Of a stretch of 42,625 nucleotides of DNA, positions 4,177 to 42,625 are shown one piece after another. The stretch lies in NCBI GenBank assembly GCA_937894085.1, contig CALCSG010000149.1, positions 1 through 42,625 on the forward strand, written 5' to 3'. Positions within the stretch are counted from its first letter, which is position 1. Each line of letters starts with the position of its first letter. This DNA is from an uncultured Gammaproteobacteria bacterium. Its GTDB lineage: Bacteria > Pseudomonadota > Gammaproteobacteria > GCA-001735895. The notes beneath the pieces were generated by a model. It did not search any database and was not told the origin of the DNA. It was given only the letters and a program-made list of their open reading frames with translations. The position numbers and the translations under genes were made by a program.

Positions 4177-7100
4177 ATGACAAAACCAATCCATGTTCTG
4201 GTCATTGAAGACACCCCGGCTGACTTTCTGTTGCTGCAGCGTCAGCTGCGTAAGGACGGCCTGGACACCGAGTGTCTGCGAGTCGAAAGCGAGCAGCAGT
4301 TCTGGGAGGCACTGGACATTGGCAGTTGGGACGTGCTGATTTCAGACTATAACGTACCGGGGGTGGATGTCATCCAGTTGCTTTCCCATGCCCATGCGCG
4401 TTATCCCGACCTGCCATTCATTCTGGTTTCCGGAGCAGTGGGCGAGGAAGTGGCTGTCGACCTGCTCAAGCAGGGCGCAGCAGATGTCGTGCTGAAGGAT
4501 CGTCTCTCCCGACTGGCACCCGCTATCGAGCGCGCCTTACGTGATGTTCAGGATCGTTGTGATAAGTTGGCGGTGACCAGCCAGTTGCAACGACTCAACC
4601 GACTGTATGCCGTACTGGGTGACATTAATGAAGCGATTGTGCGTTGTCATGACCCGGACAGGCTGTTCACCGAATGTTGCCGCATTGCCGTAGATCAGGG
4701 AGGTTTCCGAATGACCTGGGTGGGTTCCATCGACTCTGACCGCAATGAACTCGTGATCCTTACCCATAGTGGTGAGGTGGGTGATTATCTGCAACAGCTA
4801 CAGATCCGTCTGCTGGATAATAGCCTTGTCCAGGGCCCCACCGGTCGTGCCCTGCGAGAAGGAAGGGCCAACGTTTGCAACGATATCGCGCAAGACGAGC
4901 GCATGGCTCCCTGGCGTGAGCAAGCCCTGCACATGGGATACCGTTCTTCCGCCGCCTTCCCGATCAAAGTTGACGGTGAAGTGCGTTACACCTTCTCACT
5001 TTATTGCGATCAGGTGGAATTCTTCGATACCTCGGAGCTCAATTTGCTGGACAGGCTGTCCGAGAATCTCGGCTATGCGCTGGACGCGATCAATGCGGAG
5101 ACACAACGCCAGACGGCCCAGTCAGCTCTGAAGGCCAGTGAGGAACGTTTTGACCTGGCCATGCGCGCCAGTAACGATGGCCTGTGGGACTGGAATCTGA
5201 TTACCAATGCGGTGTATTACTCACCCCGCTGGAAGGCCATGCTCGGCTTCCGCGAAGATGAACTGGATAATCATTTCAGTACCTGGGAGCGCCTTGTTGA
5301 TCCGGAAGGAAAAGACCGGGGCATGAAGCTCACCAACGACTGCCTGATCGGGAAGAGTGAGGGAATGGAAGTGATATATCGCATGCGCCACAAGGCTGGC
5401 CACTGGGTGGATGTCCTTTCCCGCGGTATGCTGGTGCACGATGCTAACGGTAAGCCGGTGCGTATGGTAGGTACGCACGTCGATATCAGCGAGCAAGTCA
5501 AGGCTGAACGTGAACTGGCCGAAGCGCAGCGCATTGCCCACCTGGGGCACTGGAGGCTGGATCTACTGCGGGAAGAGTTGACCTGGTCGGACGAGGTCTA
5601 TCGTATCTTCGAAATAGATCAGGAAGAATTCAAGGCTACCTATGCTGCCTTCCTGCAACGGATCCATCCTGACGATCGCGAGGGTGTGGATCGCGCCTAC
5701 CGGACTCACCTGGATTCCGCTGCTCCCTACGAAATTTCACACCGTCTATTGTTTGCGGATGGCCGCACCAAATATGTCCTCGAACGCTGCGAAACAGAAC
5801 GTGATGCACAGGGTGCAGCGCTCTACTCGCTGGGTACGGTACTGGATATCACCAAGCAAAAGTTACTGGAACAGGAGTTACGCGATAGCGAACAAAAATC
5901 ACTCGCTATTCTCGACAGCGTGCCGGAGACCGTGCTGGTGGTGGATCGGGATGGTCTCATCCTGCGCGCCAACATTCAGGCGGAGCGGATGTTCGGTTAC
6001 CCACCGAAGGAACTTCAGGGCCAGAACGTGGATTGCCTGTTACCTGACCAGTATCGAGGACACCATGCGCAATTGCGCAACATATTTATGGCACATTCAG
6101 AGAACCGGCGGATGGGTAAAGAGCTGGACCTGAAAGCGCATCGCTTCGACGGCAGCGAGTTTCCAGTGGAAGTCAGCCTGACCCCGCTGGTGAGCGGTGA
6201 CCAGCAACAGGTGATCGTCGCAATTCACGACATCTCCGAGCGCAAGACGAGCGAGAACCTGATCAGCATGGATCGTGAGCAACAGGCCATTCTGCGGGAA
6301 CTGCTGGAAACCGCCCTGTATAACCGACCACTGGTAGAAACTCTGCAAAAATGCCTGGAGCGGCTATTGGCGATTTCCTGGCTTTCCCTGCTGCCCAAGG
6401 GAGGGATTTTACTCATGGCGGAGGATGGCCAGAACCTGGAACTGATGGTCTCACACAATCTCTCAGCTCAGATCCAGTCCCTCTGCGCCCATGTGCCGCT
6501 TGGCTACTGTCATTGCGGCCAGGCTGCTTCCAGCGGCCTGATGCAGTTTTCCAAATGTCTCGACGAACGGCATGATATTACCTATCCTGATATAGTGGAT
6601 CACGGCCACTACAACCTGCCGCTGGTGTCAGATGAGTCAGTCCTCGGCGTACTGGTGCTGTACCTCCCACTGGGGTTCGAGCGTGATGCGCAGAAAGAGC
6701 AGTTTCTCGCCTCGGTGGCCGGTATTCTGGCCGGGCTGATCAGTCGCAAGCAGGCAGAAATCGAACTTATACAGCACCAGGAGCACCTGGAGGATTTGGT
6801 GGATGCCCGCACCATCGATCTGGAGCAAGCGAGGGAGATCGCAGAGAGCGCAAATCAGGCCAAGAGCACTTTCCTGGCGATGATGAGCCACGAGATCCGT
6901 ACGCCAATGAACGCGATGATGGGTATGCTGGAACTGGTCGGTATGCATCGCCTTAACGAAGAACAGGCCAGAATGCTGGAAGTAGCACAGGAATCGGGCA
7001 ACTCCCTGCTGTCGATTATCGATGACATCCTGGACTTTTCCAAGATAGAGGCTGGTAAGCTGTCGATCCATCCGGAGCCAGCCTCAATCACAGAACTGAT

Positions 7101-29525: not shown

Positions 29526-30898
29526 ATGACTCAATACGATGCGATTGTTATTGGTACAGGGCAGGCAGGACCTTCTATGGCTACACGACTGGCTGGAGAA
29601 GGATTTAAAACAGCTATTATTGAGAGAGGTAAATTTGGTGGTACCTGCGTCAATAATGGCTGTGTCCCCACTAAAACTCTGATAGCGAGTGCCCGGGCAG
29701 CGCATGTTGCCCGACATGCAGACGACTACGGTGTGATGATCGAAGGCCCGGTCAGGGTAGATATGAAGCAGGTAAAAGCACGTAAAGATAAAATATCCGG
29801 TAATAGCACTCACAGTGTCGAGCAATGGCTAAAAGAGACTGATAACTTAACTGTGTACCATGGAACGGGAAAATTTGAAAGCAGCCATACAGTTCGTGTT
29901 GGAGATGAATTATTACAGGCTGATAAAAATTCATCAATGTGGGCGGACATGCATTGGTTCCCCCATTTTCCGGGCTGGATGATATCGATTATCTGACCAA
30001 TGAAAACATCATGGATGTGGACTATCTTCCACCGCATCTGATCATTATTGGCGGCAGTTATATTGGTCTTGAATTTGCCCAGATGTATCGACGTTTCGGC
30101 AGTCAGGTCACGGTTGTTGAAAAAGGCTCAAGGATAATTCAACGCGAAGATGAAGACGTATCCAGCACAGTGATGGAAGTGCTGCAAAAAGAAGGTGTGA
30201 TATTCCGTTTAAATTCTGAATGTATCTCGCCACAAAAGCAGGGCGGCGAAATCGTCGTCAAACTGGACTGTAAAGATGATTTAAAAGAAGTGAGGGGATC
30301 GCATTTATTACTGGCTGTCGGGCGAACTCCAAATACGCAAAATCTGGGGCTGGATAAAGCGGGCATAGAAGTCGATGATCGAGGTTTCATAGTAGTTGAT
30401 GATAAATTGCAAACGACCGTTCCCGGAATCTGGGCATTGGGAGACTGTAACGGTCAGGGGGCATTCACCCACACATCATACAATGACTATGAAATAGTAG
30501 CGGCTAACTTGCTGGATGAAGATCCAAGAAGAGTAAGCGACCGTATTTTGACCTATGGCCTGTTTGTTGACCCTCCTCTGGGCCGCGTGGGTATGACTGA
30601 AAATCAGGCGCGTGAATCCGCGCGCAATGTTCTGATCGGCAAGATGCCTATGACACGTATTGGCAGGGCGGTAGAAAAAGGCCAGACCGATGGTTTTATG
30701 AAAATTCTAGTTGATGCAGACAGCAAAGAGATATTAGGTGCTGCCATCATTGGTTTGAACGGAGATGAAGTCATCCATTCAATTACCGATATTATGTACG
30801 CTAAAGTACCTTATACGGTCATTCAGCGAGCGATGCATATTCACCCCACAGTGTCGGAGTTGATACCCACGATGCTAGGCGACTTAAAGCCATTATAG
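29526..30898 (+). pseudogene. FAD-dependent pyridine nucleotide-disulfide oxidoreductase (MerA-like), frameshifted
   Basis: The first frame (29526-29996) has the FAD motif IVIGTGQAGPSMA and the redox disulfide GGTCVNNGCVPTKTL. It leaves the family after DELLQADK. The second frame picks up at FINVGGHALVPPFSGLDDI, near 29930, and continues through the NAD-binding motif IIIGGSYIGLEFAQ, the second FAD motif (WALGDCNG) and the dimerisation domain with HIHPTVSEL, to the stop at 30898. A single-base change in the A-rich GATAAAAATTC at about 29925-29932 explains the shift. The C-terminal Cys pair specific to MerA is absent, so mercury reduction is unlikely; general disulfide reductases of this type reduce other substrates. 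It may be a sequencing error or a real mutation. GGAG lies ahead of the start. Confidence 0.88.
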
Positions 30899-30916: not shown

Positions 30917-32558
30917 ATGACTGACAACAGTACAACAATGACGCTTTCCGGGAAAACGCTTTCCCCCGGTTTGGGCGAGGGTCAGATCTTTGTCTACCGG
31001 GATATCATGAACCGCTTTGACGAGTTTTACGATATCGACGATACCCAGATTGAACCCGAGCTGAAACGTTTGGACCGTGCGCTTGCGAGGATTTCAGATG
31101 ACCTGAGCGTGCTGGCAGGCCGCGTTGAGGCGGAGATCGATTCGGAACTCTCGGGTGTGTTTCACGCACACCTCGCTATGATGCAAGATGCAAGCTTGAA
31201 GGCAGAGGTAGAGAAGGAGGTCAAAGGCGAATTAGTCAGTGCGGGGAGCGCTGTGAGAACGGTGTTTCGTCGCTGGGAGCATCGGTTCCAATCCATGGAC
31301 GCTGAGGTGTCAAGACAGAAAAGCGATGACATGCGGGACCTGGCGCGACGGCTTGTCTCTGCGCTGGCAGGCGTCCATGCGCATGCCCTGGCGGATCTGC
31401 CCCGTGGCAGTGTTCTTGTAGCAAACCGCCTGCTGCCATCTGATACCGTATTCCTCGCGCGGAATATGGCCGCCGCAGCTTTGCTGGAAATTGGCGCAAA
31501 AGGCTCTCACGCAGCTCTATTCGCTCGCGAAATAGGGCTTCCGTGTGTGGCCGCTCTTCCGGGCCTTTTGGAGACAGTATCCGAGAGTTCTTATGCGCTC
31601 GTCGATGCCGATGGAGCTCAAGCCATCATTAATCCCAACGCGACGCAGCGCGATACGTTCCTGAAGAAGATCGAGCAGAGGACGCAGACAATTGCCAAAG
31701 CCCGTGCTCGCGCTCACAAGTCAGCTATGACACAAGATGGGACACGAATTGCCGTTCTCGCCAATGTGGGGGACGCAGAAGACACACGAATCGCCATCGA
31801 GAACGGGGCGGATGGGGTGGGTCTTTATCGCCTTGAACAGATTTACTTAAGCCGGCAGCACCCCCCCCAGCACGGTCGAGCTGGTTGAAGCAATGCAAAC
31901 GACATTGAAGCCCGCTAAAGGTCTGCCAGTGAATGTGCGGTTGCTTGATGTCGGAGCGGACAAGCCACTTCCCTTTATTGACATGCCCAGGGAGCAAAAT
32001 CCTTCATTGGGACAAAGGGGTATCCGCTTCCTGTTGCAATATCCAGAACTCCTGCAAACGCAGATGGACGCACTGCTCCAGCTTTCCCCCGATTTTGACC
32101 TGCGTATTTTAGTGCCGATGGTCACACTACCCGGCGATATGGCTGCAGTAGAGGAAGCTCTAAGGGCTTCAGCTTCAAGAGCCAGGACATCAAGAGTACC
32201 TGCACTTGGCGCCATGATTGAAACGCCAGCTGCGGCCCTTGCTGCTGCTGACATCTCAAGGCACGCATCATTCCTGAGTTTCGGAACGAATGACCTTACA
32301 CAGTACTCCTTTGCCGCCGACCGCGAGAATGCATCTGTTGACACCTACTTCGATGACACCCATGATGTCATTTTTCGCCTGATTAGCATGGTTCATGGTG
32401 ATATCCCCGACATGCCTCTTTCCGTCTGCGGGGAATTGGCCGGGCGATCCAATGCTACCTCCAGACTGCTGGGGTGCGGCATCACTTCCCTGAGTGTTGT
32501 CCCCCTCGCCATCCCCACAATCAAAGAAGCTGTTCGAAATTGCGGCAGGACATCATAG
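30917..32558 (+). pseudogene. Enzyme I-like PEP-protein phosphotransferase, frameshifted in a C8 tract
   Basis: The first frame (30917-31888) holds the enzyme I N-terminal domain (LSGKTLSPGLGEGQIF, helical HPr-binding region, RSVLVANRLLPSDT), with the phosphorylated-His motif GSHAALFAREIGLP, and the start of the PEP-binding barrel (GVGLYRLEQIYLSR). At 31861-31868 lies a run of eight C; after it the family continues in another frame from STVELVEAMQ, with LDVGADKPLPF, GQRGIRF, ETPAAALAA, SFGTNDLTQYSFAADREN and the catalytic Cys in CGELAG, to 32558. Everything needed for catalysis is present if one base is corrected. No HPr or EIIA gene is adjacent. It follows the flavoprotein by 18 bases and may form an operon with it. 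Confidence 0.88.
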
Positions 32559-37432: not shown

Positions 37433-38902
37433 TCAACCTACGGCGCCTTCAAGCGTCAGGTTCAATAATTTTTGTGCCTCCACCGCAAATTCCATAGGTA
37501 ATTCCTTGAACACTTCTTTACAGAATCCATTCACAATCATCGACACGGCATCTTCTTCTGATATTCCGCGCTGGCGACAGTAAAATAGCTGGTCATCAGA
37601 AATTTTGGAGGTGGTCGCTTCGTGTTCTACCTCGGCATCAGGGTTCATGACCTCGATATACGGGAAGGTATGCGCTGCACACTGGTCACCCAGCAACAGG
37701 GAATCACACTGGGTGTGATTACGTGCATTCACCGCACCTTTCGACATACGGACCAGTCCTCGATAGGTGTTCTGTCCGTGTCCGGCAGAAATCCCTTTAG
37801 AGACGATGGTGCTTTTGGTATTTGCTCCAATGTGAATCATTTTGGTACCGGTATCGGCCTGTTGCCGGCCACGAGTTACCGCCACGGAATAAAACTCGCC
37901 TACCGAGTCATCACCGATTAACAGGCAACTCGGATACTTCCAGGTGATTGCCGATCCGGTTTCTACCTGGGTCCATGATATGTGCGAGCGTTTACCACGA
38001 CAGGCACCGCGTTTGGTGACGAAGTTATAGATTCCACCTTTACCCTGTTCATCACCGGGATACCAGTTTTGCACAGTGGAATACTTAATAGAGGCATCAT
38101 CCATCGCAACCAGTTCCACTACTGCGGCATGCAACTGATTTTCATCGCGCATGGGGGCGGTACAACCCTCTAGATAACTCACGGAACTACCTGCCTCGGC
38201 AATAATAAGCGTGCGTTCAAACTGCCCGGTATTGGCTTCATTGATGCGAAAATAAGTCGATAATTCCATCGGGCAGCGAACACCTTGAGGAATGTACACA
38301 AAGGTACCATCGGTAAATACGGCGGCATTCAGGGCTGCGTAAAAATTATCGGAATAAGGCACTACAGAACCCATATATTTCTGTACCAGTTGCGGATGTT
38401 TTTGAATCGCTTCTGACATGGAACAGAAAATTACACCCGCATCAGCCAGACTCTTACGAAAGGTAGTGGCTACGGAGACACTGTCGAATACCGCATCGAC
38501 CGCAGCGCCCGCTAGTGCTTTTTGTTCTTCCAGCGGAATACCCAGTTTGTTGTAGGCCTCGAGCAATTGAGGGTCGACCTCATCCAGGCTGTTCAGACTT
38601 TCCTTTTTTTTAGGTGCAGAATAGTAGGACATGGACTGGAAATCGATATCAGGATGCTTTACGTGAGCCCATTCAGGATCTTCCATCGCTAACCATCGGC
38701 GATATGCCTTGAGGCGCCATTCCAGTACCCAGTCCGGTTCGTTCTTTTTGGCGGAAATTTTAAGGATAGTGTTTTCGCTAAGACCAGGAGGGAAAGTGTC
38801 AGATTCAATGGGCGTGACAAAGCCGTGTGCATACCCGCTGCGGATTAAATCATCGATGGGAGTTTGATCATTTTCCTGGTCATTTTTCAGGGCCGAACGC
38901 AT
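37433..38902 (-). CDS. sufB: SufB, Fe-S assembly scaffold subunit
   Basis: 489 residues, full length. SufB carries the nascent cluster in the SufBCD complex. The family blocks [61 protein letters not shown], the YLEGCTAP Cys, [39 protein letters not shown] and the C-terminal [20 protein letters not shown] are all present. It is the first gene of the operon. AAAGGT precedes the start by about seven bases, and a perfect 19-bp palindrome lies 20 bases upstream of the start codon. Confidence 0.97.
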
Positions 38903-38922
38903 ATTAGCTACCTTTGTTAATT

Positions 38923-38941
38923 CCTGAGTAAATTACTCAGG
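38923..38941 (-). promoter_or_regulatory. 19-bp perfect palindrome upstream of sufB, probable IscR/Rrf2-type operator
   Basis: CCTGAGTAA-A-TTACTCAGG, written on the + strand, 21 bases before the sufB start codon. The spacing and the TGAGTAA...TTACTCA core resemble type 1 IscR-like sites of Rrf2 regulators that control suf and isc operons. No rrf2 gene is in the window. It probably overlaps the promoter, giving Fe-S-dependent repression. Confidence 0.6.
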
Positions 38942-39133
38942 TATTACCCATGTATACGCTTATCGATACAAATAACAACACTTATTAAAATGGGGGTATG
39001 CTGAAATTGTGGCATTTCCCGCCATTTGTGTGTCTATATTAGCTACTAACCAAAGAGGGACAACTGATCCAGAAATCTGAGATAAAAATGACCTGAACGT
39101 AAACATTCAACGGTTCAACTCATTTGCGATGCT
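38942..39133. other. Intergenic region between sufB and nhaA
   Basis: On the - strand, TTGTAT at about 38965-38970 and TAATAC close to 38946 could be the suf promoter. No clear terminator of nhaA was seen. Confidence 0.35.
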
Positions 39134-40498
39134 TTATTGTGTCAGATTGATTGTTTTGTTACTTATTTTAGTAGATATAATTCGAAGATATAATATGCCA
39201 AGAATTGCAGAAATAACTGAGGCGAACAAAATCGATGTTTTAGCGCTATGAAGATGCTCTGGTTGCGTGTCAAACCCCAGCGTGGCTATAAATGTCGACA
39301 TGGTAAAGCCAATACCGGCTATCAGTGATACACCTATTACGTGGTGAAGATTAATGCCATCAGGTAAACGTCCAATTTTGTATCTTAGGCCAAGCCAGCA
39401 TGCGCCTGAAATACCAACCAGTTTACCAACTACAAGTCCAGTAACAATTCCTAATCCCGTTGGATGTTGAAGGCTCTCTATAAATGAGCTTACGCTAAAT
39501 ACCACACCCGCATTAACCAGAGCAAATAGTGGCAGGACAAATAATGCGACGGGTAAGTCCAGCGCATCTTCCCAGCGGCGCAGAGGGGTGCTGGCGCTTT
39601 CCGCAAAATCACGTATCTCCAGCACTTGTTCATGATCCTGACGACTACCGAGAACATCAACCTGATCTTCATTATTTTGCATTGAATTAATTTTAGTTTT
39701 CGCTTTATCGAGCAATTTACCAGGTGCCAACATGGGTCTTGCGGGAATCGTTAAAGCAATAGCGACGCCTGCAAAAGTAGGATGAACACCGGATTTAAGC
39801 ATCGTCCACCAGGCGGCAATGCCAACAATGATATAGAAAACAGGCTGGCGGATACCTGCATAATTAGCCACAGCCAAAAACGCGATCAGAGTAAAGGAGG
39901 TTAACAGAAATGTTACCGATATATCCTGTGTATAGAATAAGGCAATCACCAGTATAGCGCCGACATCATCGACGATGGCCAGGCCAACGATAAAAGCTAA
40001 CAGGCTAGTGGGAATGTGTTTTCTAACCAGGGTGAGCACACCTAAGGCAAATGCCGTATCTGTCGCCATCGGGATACCCCATCCAATCTGTGAATCTAAA
40101 GACCAGTTGAAAAATGAGTAGATTACCGCTGGACAAACCATGCCACCGACAGCACAAAGAATTAACATGCGTCGATTTTCTGATAAAGCAAGATCCCCCG
40201 CGAGTACTTCACGTTTGATTTCAAGTCCGATGAGGAAGAAAAATATGACCATCAAACCATCATTAATAATATATTTTAGTGAAGCCTGTAGCTCGATATC
40301 ACCCAGAAAAATACCAATCGGTATATGAGTGAGATTCTGATAAGTAGAAGCATAATCTGAATTTGCCCACCACAGGGCCGTGATAGTGGCGACCAGAAGA
40401 AACAGACTGGATGTAGTCTGTGCACGTATAAAGGTTGAAAAAGGGGGCTGAATGTTTTTCAGACCACGCTGCAATAAATTATTTGTGTGATCAGTCAT
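39134..40498 (-). CDS. nhaA: NhaA Na+/H+ antiporter
   Basis: 454 residues with the usual eleven to twelve membrane segments. NhaA exchanges two protons for one sodium ion across the inner membrane and supports pH and salt homeostasis. The paired ion-binding aspartates are in GLAIVDDVGAI, the family blocks GIPMATDTAFALGVL, FFFLIGLEIKREVL and GIGFTMSTFIA are intact. A hydrophilic insertion of about 45 residues (around KTKINSMQNNEDQVDVLGSR) between the two halves is typical of the longer NhaA forms. ATG 40498 is chosen because GGATGA lies ahead of it; ATG 40507 in the same frame adds three residues. Transcribed apart from suf, with 231 bases between them. Confidence 0.93.
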   Translation of the reverse strand: MTDHTNNLLQRGLKNIQPPFSTFIRAQTTSSLFLLVATITALWWANSDYASTYQNLTHIPIGIFLGDIELQASLKYIINDGLMVIFFFLIGLEIKREVLAGDLALSENRRMLILCAVGGMVCPAVIYSFFNWSLDSQIGWGIPMATDTAFALGVLTLVRKHIPTSLLAFIVGLAIVDDVGAILVIALFYTQDISVTFLLTSFTLIAFLAVANYAGIRQPVFYIIVGIAAWWTMLKSGVHPTFAGVAIALTIPARPMLAPGKLLDKAKTKINSMQNNEDQVDVLGSRQDHEQVLEIRDFAESASTPLRRWEDALDLPVALFVLPLFALVNAGVVFSVSSFIESLQHPTGLGIVTGLVVGKLVGISGACWLGLRYKIGRLPDGINLHHVIGVSLIAGIGFTMSTFIATLGFDTQPEHLHSAKTSILFASVISAILGILYLRIISTKISNKTINLTQ

Positions 40499-40641
40499 TT
40501 TAGTCATCCAGTTGTCTATTATTAAGTTGTGCAGAAAATATATTAGAAGTTAATTCCAATAGTCGTAGACTCCCACATAAGATTCGCTATAAGAAATATG
40601 AAGCCTACATAATCGTCGTGCGTTTAAGCCCGGTTGATGCG

Positions 40642-40719
40642 TTAGACAGGCCAGGCTTCAACACGGTTTTTGCCTTTTAATTTTGCCGCATATAGAGCTT
40701 TATCTGCGTACCTGATCAT
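40642..40719 (-). pseudogene. C-terminal tail of a GGDEF diguanylate cyclase
   Basis: About 24 codons: IRYADKALYAAKLKGKNRVEAWPV, the invariant ADxALYxAKxxGxNRV end of GGDEF domains. Everything upstream is replaced: the bases coding for its first residues overlap the end of the TusE-like reading frame, so this is a recombination junction. Confidence 0.75.
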
Positions 40720-41067
40720 AATCGATGCCACTAATGGCTAATTCCATAAACAGGCGATGTGGATATTTACGACCGTCCTGGCTAGCCAATGTATTGTCAA
40801 GCATATCACCTAACTCACGACCGTTTTCAGGCACACCATGTTCCCGATAGTAGTCGCGCAATAACTGCGCTACCTGTAGGTGAGCATCAGTGAGCGCTAT
40901 ACCTTCGTCCCTGGCAACTTTGCGCGCCTGATCTTCATTCCAGCCATGTAATACTGCTTCGCGATTGATTATTGCGCTGCTGACTGGCCAATGTCGGTAT
41001 CAACGCTGACATCCATCAATTTTACAATCTCAGCGAATTCATCAACGATTTTTTCTCTATCAGTCAT
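40700..41067 (-). pseudogene. TusE/DsrC-like sulfur relay protein, frameshifted and lacking the C-terminal cysteines
   Basis: From 40978 down to TAA 40700-40702 the frame reads WNEDQARKVARDEGIALTDAH, then LLRDYYREHG, RELGDML and RKYPHRLFMELAISGI. The pattern Wn.e.A...A.eegi.Lt.aH...lLRdYY is that of DsrC/TusE. The usual C-terminal Cys pair is missing. This frame has no start codon. In another frame a strong ribosome site (AAAGGAG) and ATG 41067 begin MTDREKIVDEFAEIVKLMDV, which after DTDIG would meet the TusE frame if one base were changed near 40975-40985. I take it as one gene broken by a frameshift, with its last part joined to GGDEF sequence. Annotation is approximate. Confidence 0.65.
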
Positions 41068-41478
41068 ATAGTTTACTCCTTTATGGATAATGTCGCGGTG
41101 TGAAGACTTTACCAGTGGGGATAATGTTCCCAGGATAAAAAAGGCCTGCACCGAAGAGGCTATAATGACTACAGATTTTTCTTCAAAAGCCGGAAAAAAT
41201 TGTACAAAAACCAGCACCAGGATTGTACCCACCACGAGCCCGGAGATATTTCCCATAAGAATATAAAGTACCCGGCTTTTAGGTATGAACAATACAAAAA
41301 ATAATTTCTTGCTCAAGCGAAGACAGATAAAAACAAGGCTCACATAAAAAAACATATCTACGATCAGATATATGTCATCCTTAGCGTAATTCAGCAACGA
41401 ACTATAGAGTAAATACGAAATAGCAAGTGCCAGCAAATCAGTTATTCTGGAGGCAAGGTTGGAAGTTTCTGAAAACAT
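40969..41478 (-). CDS. Hypothetical membrane protein with four membrane segments
   Basis: 169 residues. Membrane segments at about 12-32, 36-56, 71-94 and 101-122, followed by a hydrophilic C-terminal part. No family is recognised. Residues 138-169 begin at an internal ATG (41067) with its own strong ribosome site and may really be the start of the TusE-like gene. If so, the membrane protein has lost its own stop and reads into that gene. The native start is uncertain because only a weak GGAA precedes ATG 41478. Confidence 0.55.
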   Translation of the reverse strand: MFSETSNLASRITDLLALAISYLLYSSLLNYAKDDIYLIVDMFFYVSLVFICLRLSKKLFFVLFIPKSRVLYILMGNISGLVVGTILVLVFVQFFPAFEEKSVVIIASSVQAFFILGTLSPLVKSSHRDIIHKGVNYMTDREKIVDEFAEIVKLMDVSVDTDIGQSAAQ

Positions 41479-41503
41479 CGTAAGTTAAATTTCCATTAAT
41501 AGT

Positions 41504-41541
41504 TAAAAATTCTGTGGCTATACAGAAAAGCTTTTCCACAG
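41504..41541 (-). terminator. Intrinsic terminator after the small Cys-rich gene
   Basis: On the - strand CTGTGG (41536-41541) and CCACAG (41512-41517) form a stem around the self-complementary AAAAGCTTTT, followed by AATTTTT. It lies 40 bases past the stop of the gene at 41581-41808. Confidence 0.6.
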
Positions 41542-41580
41542 CTTATAAAAAATCATTTATGCAAAGTTGAGTGGGATGAT

Positions 41581-41808
41581 TTAGTTCTTCATCGTCGTAG
41601 TGACTACGTTGTTAAGCACGCGAATATTTCCTTCCCATCCGCACGGATAGTTATGGCAGCGATAACGGTGCACGGGAAATATCGGGCTAAATATGCGATC
41701 TATAAAGCGGCGACGTATCCGCATTAAATATTTTTCAGTGCACACCGGGCAGCCAGACCTGGAGAAAGTGCCTTTATTAGACGATTCGTAATTTTGTTTG
41801 TGTTGCAT
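41581..41808 (-). CDS. Small Cys-rich protein, possible zinc ribbon
   Basis: 75 residues with two Cys pairs, SGCPVCTEKYL near residue 20 and YRCHNYPCGWEG near residue 50, separated by a basic stretch (MRIRRRFIDRIF). The arrangement is that of a small zinc-ribbon, but no family is recognised. CAGGAG lies ten bases ahead of the start, and a terminator follows, so it is likely a real gene. Confidence 0.65.
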   Translation of the reverse strand: MQHKQNYESSNKGTFSRSGCPVCTEKYLMRIRRRFIDRIFSPIFPVHRYRCHNYPCGWEGNIRVLNNVVTTTMKN

Positions 41809-41967
41809 GATTAGTAACTCCTGGTTGAATTCGATTCGTTGAGCAGGAAATACGGCATTGAATCTTAACCAGTGAAGTAGTCGCCTTTAATGGTGACAGC
41901 ATTCGTATTTTTAAGGTTAACGACGATATTTTATGACGCAATATTACGCGTGTGTTTGCGGTCCGTC

Positions 41968-41983
41968 TGTACGTTAACGAACA
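41968..41983. promoter_or_regulatory. Palindromic motif TGTACGTTAACGAACA
   Basis: One of three copies of TGTNCGNTNNCGNACA in the window. 14 of 16 positions are palindromic. It stands between the divergent small Cys-rich gene and the lipoprotein remnant. Confidence 0.45.
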
Positions 41984-42023
41984 CTCAATCTTATTTTAAA
42001 TTTGCGCCGGAATCGCGCCCGCA

Positions 42024-42039
42024 TGTGCGGTAGCGTACA
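42024..42039. promoter_or_regulatory. Palindromic motif TGTGCGGTAGCGTACA
   Basis: Third copy of the motif, 41 bases after the previous one. Flanked by ATAC on one side, as at 23083. Confidence 0.45.
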
Positions 42040-42184
42040 TACAGAAATGTATTTATATGCGAACCTGCAGGTCAGCGTAATGATGATCTTGCCAGTGGCC
42101 AGGTTGCCCACCACGCTCTGCAGGAATCCTTTCTGCCGGATATGGACGCATACACGGTTTAGTTAAATCCGTCTGGATCAAAAA

Positions 42185-42403
42185 ATTAAGACATACATAA
42201 ACGCCGTTGCTGTATTGTTAATTACTTGCCTGCTTGCTGGCTGTAGTAGTATTCCGGTATCTCAGGACTATTTGCCTGCAGCGGATTTCTCAGGCTTGAA
42301 AAGCTATCGCTGGAGTGCAGATAGCCTGCAAATGGAAAAGGAAACTAGAGGCAATAACCCCTTGATGCACAGCCGTATACACGTTCGGTTGATTGCCAAA
42401 TGA
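42185..42403 (+). pseudogene. DUF4136 lipoprotein, truncated remnant
   Basis: The frame reads IKTYINAVAVLLITCLLAGC, a signal peptide with lipobox, then SQDYLPAADFSGLKSYRWSAD, the start of the DUF4136 domain, and NPLMHSRIHVRLIAK before TGA 42401-42403. An ATT stands where the start ATG would be expected, and the domain ends after about 60 of the usual 170 residues. Read only from TTG 42215, the signal peptide would be incomplete. Hence a decayed gene. Confidence 0.6.
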
Positions 42404-42449
42404 TAGTCAAAATGCAGCTTCCTTTCACTTAACAAAGAGCACTATAGAC

Positions 42450-42596
42450 ATGAAAAAAATTATTCCATTATTAGGTCTGTTACTGCTAGTAACGCAGGCA
42501 AATGCAGCCGACCTGGATACCAGACAATTATATTTTGGTGCCGGTGTTGGCTTTAACAGTATTTATAATAGTGTAACTATTCAGCGTAAATTATAG
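42450..42596 (+). pseudogene. N-terminal fragment of an outer-membrane beta-barrel protein
   Basis: 48 codons from ATG 42450: signal peptide MKKIIPLLGLLLLVTQANA, then ADLDTRQLYFGAGVGFNS, one beta-strand of a barrel, and TAG 42594-42596. Family members have about 170-220 residues, so it is truncated. A short real peptide cannot be excluded, because the window ends 29 bases later. Confidence 0.5.
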
Positions 42597-42625
42597 GAAA
42601 AACATCTTGACAGGGTTTTAGCGTG

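Follow-up and report, generated by a model that had tools for sequence, protein, structure and literature searches.

The window analysed here, a stretch of 42,625 nucleotides from an uncultured Gammaproteobacteria bacterium, carries close to one end a junction at which pieces of three genes follow one another on the minus strand, namely a small membrane-protein gene, a broken DsrC/TusE-like gene and the tail of a GGDEF gene (Table 1). The membrane protein lies in a 169-codon open frame (41478..40969) that passes straight into the DsrC-like N-terminus MTDREK. The DsrC-like start, MTDREKIVDEFAEIVKLMDVSVDTDIGQ..., has its ATG at 41067 with AAAGGAGTAAACTAT directly upstream. A second minus-strand frame, 40972..40703, matches the Pfam DsrC model (PF04358) at E=2.5e-11 with 44.4 bits, above the cut-off of 24.9, and scores 39 bits against TIGR03342, below the cut-off of 53.5. 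The initial annotation, which described a membrane-protein frame running into a start with a strong ribosome site and then a shift into a TusE/DsrC-like frame, was right on both counts.

The third piece stands in yet another frame and reads MIRYADKALYAAKLKGKNRVEAWPV up to a stop codon. It aligns only with positions 144-161 of the 161 of the Pfam GGDEF model, its last 18, at E=0.06, which is below the cut-off; it is thus a domain end only, and not a GGDEF domain with its active-site motif. In a search at E<=1, 14 further open frames of this genome match it with 47-67% identity (E 0.03-0.9), these being similarity matches and not established GGDEF proteins. No close DNA copy of a GGDEF parent was found in the assembly, only distant protein matches. 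The overlap first reported between the DsrC-like frame and the GGDEF end exists for the frames (40703 versus 40719) but not for the homologies, which are separated by about 30 bases. The nhaA gene is next on this side. The one close relative of this nhaA, in G004, is 90% identical at the protein level; DNA homology to it ends at window position 40576, and the contig there starts 435 bp before nhaA, which limits the search for the remnant upstream of that gene.

Table 1. Features at the junction and in the adjoining segment (window coordinates; C354 is another contig of the same assembly).
Feature	Position	Strand	Remarks
GGDEF (diguanylate cyclase) C-terminal remnant	40645..40719	-	25 residues; stop codon at 40642-40644
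Short stretch between end of C354 homology and GGDEF remnant	40720..40747	-	C354 match stops at 40748
Second-frame part of the probable DsrC-like pseudogene	40703..40972	-	90 residues; residues 9-76 match Pfam DsrC
First-frame part of the probable DsrC-like pseudogene	40969..41067	-	32 codons, ATG to premature stop; AAAGGAG ribosome site upstream
Decayed DsrC-like gene with leader	40748..41093	-	91% DNA identity to intact C354 gene
Small membrane-protein gene	41083..41478	-	Whole to second-last residue; stop lost; homologues 133-141 aa
Stretch absent from C354	41094..41722	.	About 43 unmatched bases there instead; holds membrane gene and part of small Cys-rich ORF
75-codon ORF with CPVC...CHNYPC pattern	41581..41808	-	Zinc-ribbon-like by eye; open in window; only a 57-bp match on C354
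Remainder of duplicated segment, largely non-coding	41831..42398	+	91% identical to C354:4467-5027
DUF4136 lipoprotein gene fragment	42215..42403	+	62 codons; whole on C354 (193 aa); about 420 bp deleted in window
Outer-membrane beta-barrel gene, 5' fragment	42403..42568	+	Whole on C354 (184 aa)
Interspersed repeat at contig end	42573..42625	.	Matches on 14 other contigs

The genome assembly to which the window belongs comprises 6.02 Mb in 567 contigs, with an estimated contamination of 4.31%. A search of this genome for the DsrC family returned nine places; that on contig C354 shares 87% identity with the 90-residue piece over residues 3-80 of the latter. At the DNA level, four BLASTN blocks connect both contigs: window 40748-41093 with C354 4023-4363 (91% over 346 columns, E=3.6e-138), 41723-41779 with 4407-4462 (88% over 57), 41831-42398 with 4467-5027 (91% over 569) and 42403-42568 with 5447-5613 (93% over 167). 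The blocks are colinear, and the DsrC-like match at the junction is not a chance one because the DNA matches C354 with such an E-value over 40748-41093. The C354 gene (L029:3933-4337, minus strand), which has the same leader, is intact with 134 codons and the full C-terminal tail GPVTQGMRFANLPVPAHSEDSGFGTTR, and its product scores 70.5 bits against Pfam DsrC (cut-off 24.9) and 68.9 bits against TIGR03342 (cut-off 53.5). C354 also holds a DUF4136 lipoprotein gene and an outer-membrane barrel gene, both whole with 193 and 184 codons, respectively. The surroundings differ, as the gene next on the DsrC-like side encodes a CitMHS-type transporter on C354, whereas it is nhaA in the window.

Compared with this intact copy, the DsrC-like gene of the window is damaged in several ways. 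Two insertions, one extra nucleotide and a 4-nt tandem duplication, lie within about 25 bases of each other; both are absent from C354 and from the two orthologues aligned, those of Thiohalobacter thiocyanaticus and GSL.Bin27, so that all three agree against the window. Homology to C354 ends at residue ~105 of 134, and the last ~29 residues, thus the whole C-terminal tail, are gone. The lost part includes P109, G113, P122 and G131, each present in 40/40 aligned family members, as well as the invariant G108. Substitutions on the window branch include F92L, G96D and L101P, at positions where the aligned members have F or Y (position 92) or an invariant residue (G96 and L101) in 40 of 40 cases. 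Seven amino-acid-changing and four silent substitutions fall on the window branch, four and three on the C354 branch, and three are unplaced, numbers too few to show relaxed constraint. The same holds for the ratio of changing to silent substitutions (about 0.45 for the window versus 0.35 for C354, per 243 and 63 sites), the counts being too few to show a loss of constraint.

Programmed frameshifting would offer a way of joining both DsrC-like frames into one regulatory protein, as the second frame is recognisably DsrC-like and the first one corresponds in alignment to the beginning of the intact protein. However, inspection by eye shows no slippery heptamer where the frame changes, and neither the C354 gene nor the two orthologues require a shift. 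Even if joined, the two parts would give a product that stops at the GGDEF junction and has no conserved tail. Such a mechanism is therefore extremely improbable.

The damage extends to the rest of the segment, since its three genes (DsrC-like, DUF4136 and outer-membrane) are all broken in the window and whole on C354. The outer-membrane gene of the window stops at the repeat that also ends the contig, and a search of the assembly did not turn up its remainder. This repeat of about 50 bp, GTAACTATTCAGCGTAAATTATAGG..., probably marks the terminus of a mobile element; it stands at the contig end in all 11 contigs inspected among the 14 others that carry it. On C354, in turn, most of the 75-codon ORF has disappeared, while the window keeps it open, and decay is thus two-sided, each copy having lost something. 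At E<=0.1, neither a Pfam match nor a further genomic copy of this ORF was found. The region 41831-42190 is largely non-coding, yet within a block about 91% identical to C354, like the DsrC-like part. A search for RNA families over window positions 38500-42625 gave no match at E<=0.1.

Indel errors, or the joining of two sources during assembly, could in principle have created the frameshift or the junctions. The genome is a draft with the fragmentation and estimated contamination given above, the frameshift taken alone could be an indel error, and the gene of a PEP-utilising enzyme, also in the window, breaks at eight consecutive C. Homopolymer runs are a usual place for indel sequencing errors. 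Nevertheless, the extra 4 nt form a tandem duplication and not a homopolymer change, and the truncation, the loss of about 420 bp in the DUF4136 gene and the changes at two invariant residues need no indel. Moreover, contigs end at the one repeat examined instead of running through it. An artefact is, on this evidence, unlikely. The PEP-utilising enzyme gene (30917-32558, plus strand) is divided into two frames near 31861, a break that may be a sequencing error because of its location at the C run. The neighbouring gene for a pyridine nucleotide-disulphide oxidoreductase (29526-30898, plus strand) also consists of two overlapping frames, split near 29930-30000.

At the right junction, the end of the membrane-protein gene and the DsrC leader have ACATTATC in common, and about the last residue and the stop codon of the membrane gene are lost, so that its frame reads 37 residues onward into the DsrC-like leader and 5' end. 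Homologues of this gene were detected in seven of the 36 genomes searched, the window's own genome, in which a single copy was found, and six others. Five of these six relatives were read for the gene end (G001, G005, G010, G016 and G008), leaving out G013 (L051). In G001, G005 and G010, the gene has 133-141 codons, lies beside ORFs resembling by eye gspM/gspN and a sugar transferase, and ends in DIIQH, DIIHH and DIIAH followed by a stop, where the window has DIIH and then KGVNYMTDREK. The G016 and G008 proteins also end in their own stops, although in G008 the open frame extends far upstream, to 286 codons between stops. In the window's own genome, contig C229 begins within the gspN-like gene, of which only a part is present there.

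This arrangement raises the question of a new working protein made of the membrane part and a 37-residue DsrC-derived tail. The 169-codon frame is indeed open, its membrane part lacks no more than the final residue and has conserved proteins as relatives, and this is the only copy found in the assembly. However, none of the five relatives read shows a membrane/DsrC-like fusion or any DsrC-like sequence after the gene, and the intact one-frame fusion that would have made the window's frameshift look like a sequencing error was thus not found among them. For the 80 DsrC-like relatives described below, the longest surrounding stop-to-stop frame has 244 codons, a figure of frame length only that leaves the upstream content aside. 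Furthermore, the tail derives from a poorly conserved N-terminal region (34/40 aligned members have a gap at residue 8, the one early column for which a count was made), and the membrane part may work with a useless tail. A functional fusion at the junction is thus very unlikely.

Window positions 40748-42568 are very probably a decayed second copy of the C354 segment, its DsrC-like gene being a pseudogene. The alignments directly show the duplication and the indels, the two junctions and the damage to two further genes of the segment, and both the frameshift and the recombination that the initial annotation held necessary are now placed by comparison with C354 and the orthologues. The events themselves may have run as follows. 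The segment would have been duplicated, the better-preserved copy being now on C354, and the 4-nt tandem duplication, possibly by replication slippage, and the 1-nt insertion would have broken the DsrC-like frame. A rearrangement, perhaps through end-joining, would have swapped the 3' end of the gene for a scrap of a GGDEF gene. The second junction, within ACATTATC, could likewise result from end-joining, which would have set the near-whole membrane gene before the DsrC leader and removed its stop. The resulting DsrC-like copy would be non-functional. Given the 567 contigs and the estimated contamination, the window and C354 copies may stem from two strains and not from a single cell.

As such, the junction matters little, being apparently a case of ordinary gene decay and one more decayed duplicate. 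It also calls for caution, as the lack of a cysteine motif should not be taken as a functional change when the copy is truncated. Indeed, the window copy is devoid of C-terminal cysteines because its tail is truncated at 40748, which removes the region of the penultimate sulfur-binding cysteine. The absence of these cysteines had been read as the sign of a regulatory protein; as it follows from truncation, the window copy cannot show such a protein and is no evidence for a regulatory DsrC. Cysteine-less DsrC-like proteins do exist, on C354 and in relatives, and the regulatory idea fits better with the intact C354 copy, judging from a sequence free of cysteine in a subfamily mostly without the sulfur-binding one. 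This intact relative deserves attention, as it represents a cysteine-poor or cysteine-free subfamily testable in named sulfur oxidisers.

The C354 DsrC-like protein contains no cysteine at all. A profile of its subfamily, built from this protein and five relatives, was scanned on GTDB genomes, a scan that may omit records very near the window's genome; it yielded 254 pattern matches and 222 relatives, of which 80 were kept. All of them are of the GP[VI][AT][QGM]G[CMS][RK][LF]A type, and the subfamily ends in a conserved D-x-[SG]-F-G tail, with FG within the last eight residues in 78/80. At the first cysteine position, C occurs in 56, S in 21 and M in three relatives, counts that are conditional since the search pattern imposes the choice of residues. 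Beyond that position, 77 of the 80 have no cysteine, and 20 have none anywhere. The closest proteins to that of C354 are from Thiohalobacter thiocyanaticus (L072, 62% identity), GSL.Bin27 (L073, 63%) and BWSM_144 (L074, 55%); these are the three Met-type members, and all are free of cysteine. The C354 protein belongs with these SFG-tailed DsrC-like proteins of sulfur-oxidising proteobacteria, whereas the window copy has lost the tail that marks the group.

According to PMC3397948, Cys111 of Allochromatium vinosum DsrC is the penultimate, sulfur-binding residue. In contrast to the DsrC/TusE family, the C354 protein has no counterpart to it. Among 40 aligned relatives of the 80, this position holds Ala in 21, Ser in nine, Asn in five, Thr in three, Val in one and Cys in one, so that the cysteine is replaced in 39; it is Ser in L072. 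The TIGR03342 cut-off of 53.5 bits is also passed by L072 (73.3) and by the A. palmeri member L113 (69.2). Fold prediction was carried out for the Thiohalobacter orthologue, not for the C354 protein, and gave an AlphaFold model with a mean pLDDT of 81.6 and a pTM of 0.68, residues 129-134 being of low confidence. DsrC-family chains are the four best of its seven PDB matches; the first, A. vinosum DsrC, has E ~1e-3 and a TM of 0.65 by target length, and the tool counts none at <=0.001. According to this model, the Thiohalobacter SFG-tailed member keeps the DsrC fold.

From these sequence features, SFG-tailed proteins are probably unable to carry sulfur as DsrC does, and the intact C354 protein most likely cannot. 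If it acts at all, it would do so by binding the partners of the DsrC/TusE relay, and a regulatory role is plausible. Venceslau and colleagues reportedly described in 2014 a DsrC-family group named RspA, without C-terminal cysteines and with a regulatory role. The C354 protein likewise has neither of the two C-terminal cysteines, a likeness to RspA by description only. It may tentatively be suggested, although the odds are rather against it, that SFG-tailed proteins constitute a third class by function, next to DsrC with its two cysteines and TusE with only the last one, with the fold kept, the sulfur-binding cysteine lost and the D-x-[SG]-F-G end gained; in sulfur oxidisers, they might then serve the sulfur relay as regulators or as partners that carry no sulfur themselves.

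The subfamily occurs in many proteobacteria, including Thiohalobacter, Allochromatium palmeri (L113) and A. humboldtianum (L134), and with few exceptions is without the sulfur-binding penultimate cysteine (C354, L072-L074 and 77 further loci). In the other seven genomes of the same genus, the window piece gives at most a match of canonical-DsrC level (best E=5.1e-7, 37% identity), and the two loci read there, L021 and L022, have the canonical end PTGCV. Over the 57 genomes searched, the best match outside the own genome is in G050 (40% identity, E=1.7e-11), followed by G016 (42%); the nearest relatives overall, 62-63% identical, came from the GTDB scan. This patchy distribution of sequences is consistent with horizontal gain or repeated loss. 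Viral contigs searched with the subfamily profile gave 210 pattern matches and no relative by tblastn. The nine DsrC-family places of the own genome are on contigs C253 (two), C289, C453, C175, C445, C354, C159 and C149, with very different C-terminal ends: L001 has the canonical two cysteines, L006 the last one only, and several have neither.

Thiohalobacter is reported to have three dsrC/tusE genes, one of which is called genuine (PMC6504805), and phage DsrC proteins are known without one or both cysteine motifs (PMC8190135) or without the second C-terminal cysteine (PMC4164917), their function being unproven in both phage studies. A putative regulatory function of DsrC is mentioned in PMC7787665, with reference to Venceslau 2014. 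The SFG-tailed group is not named in the titles and abstract openings surveyed for a cysteine-less DsrC class, a body of text that leaves subscription papers mostly uncovered. No conserved neighbour is widely shared across the 80 loci (open frames of at least 90 codons, flanks of unequal length), and genomic context therefore gives no function for the subfamily; the commonest neighbour family, by eye an ABC-type ATPase, is present at 9/80 loci. Two different SFG-tailed DsrC-like genes are near neighbours at L074:4992-6144, and the ORFs after them resemble by eye c-type cytochromes and an NhaA.
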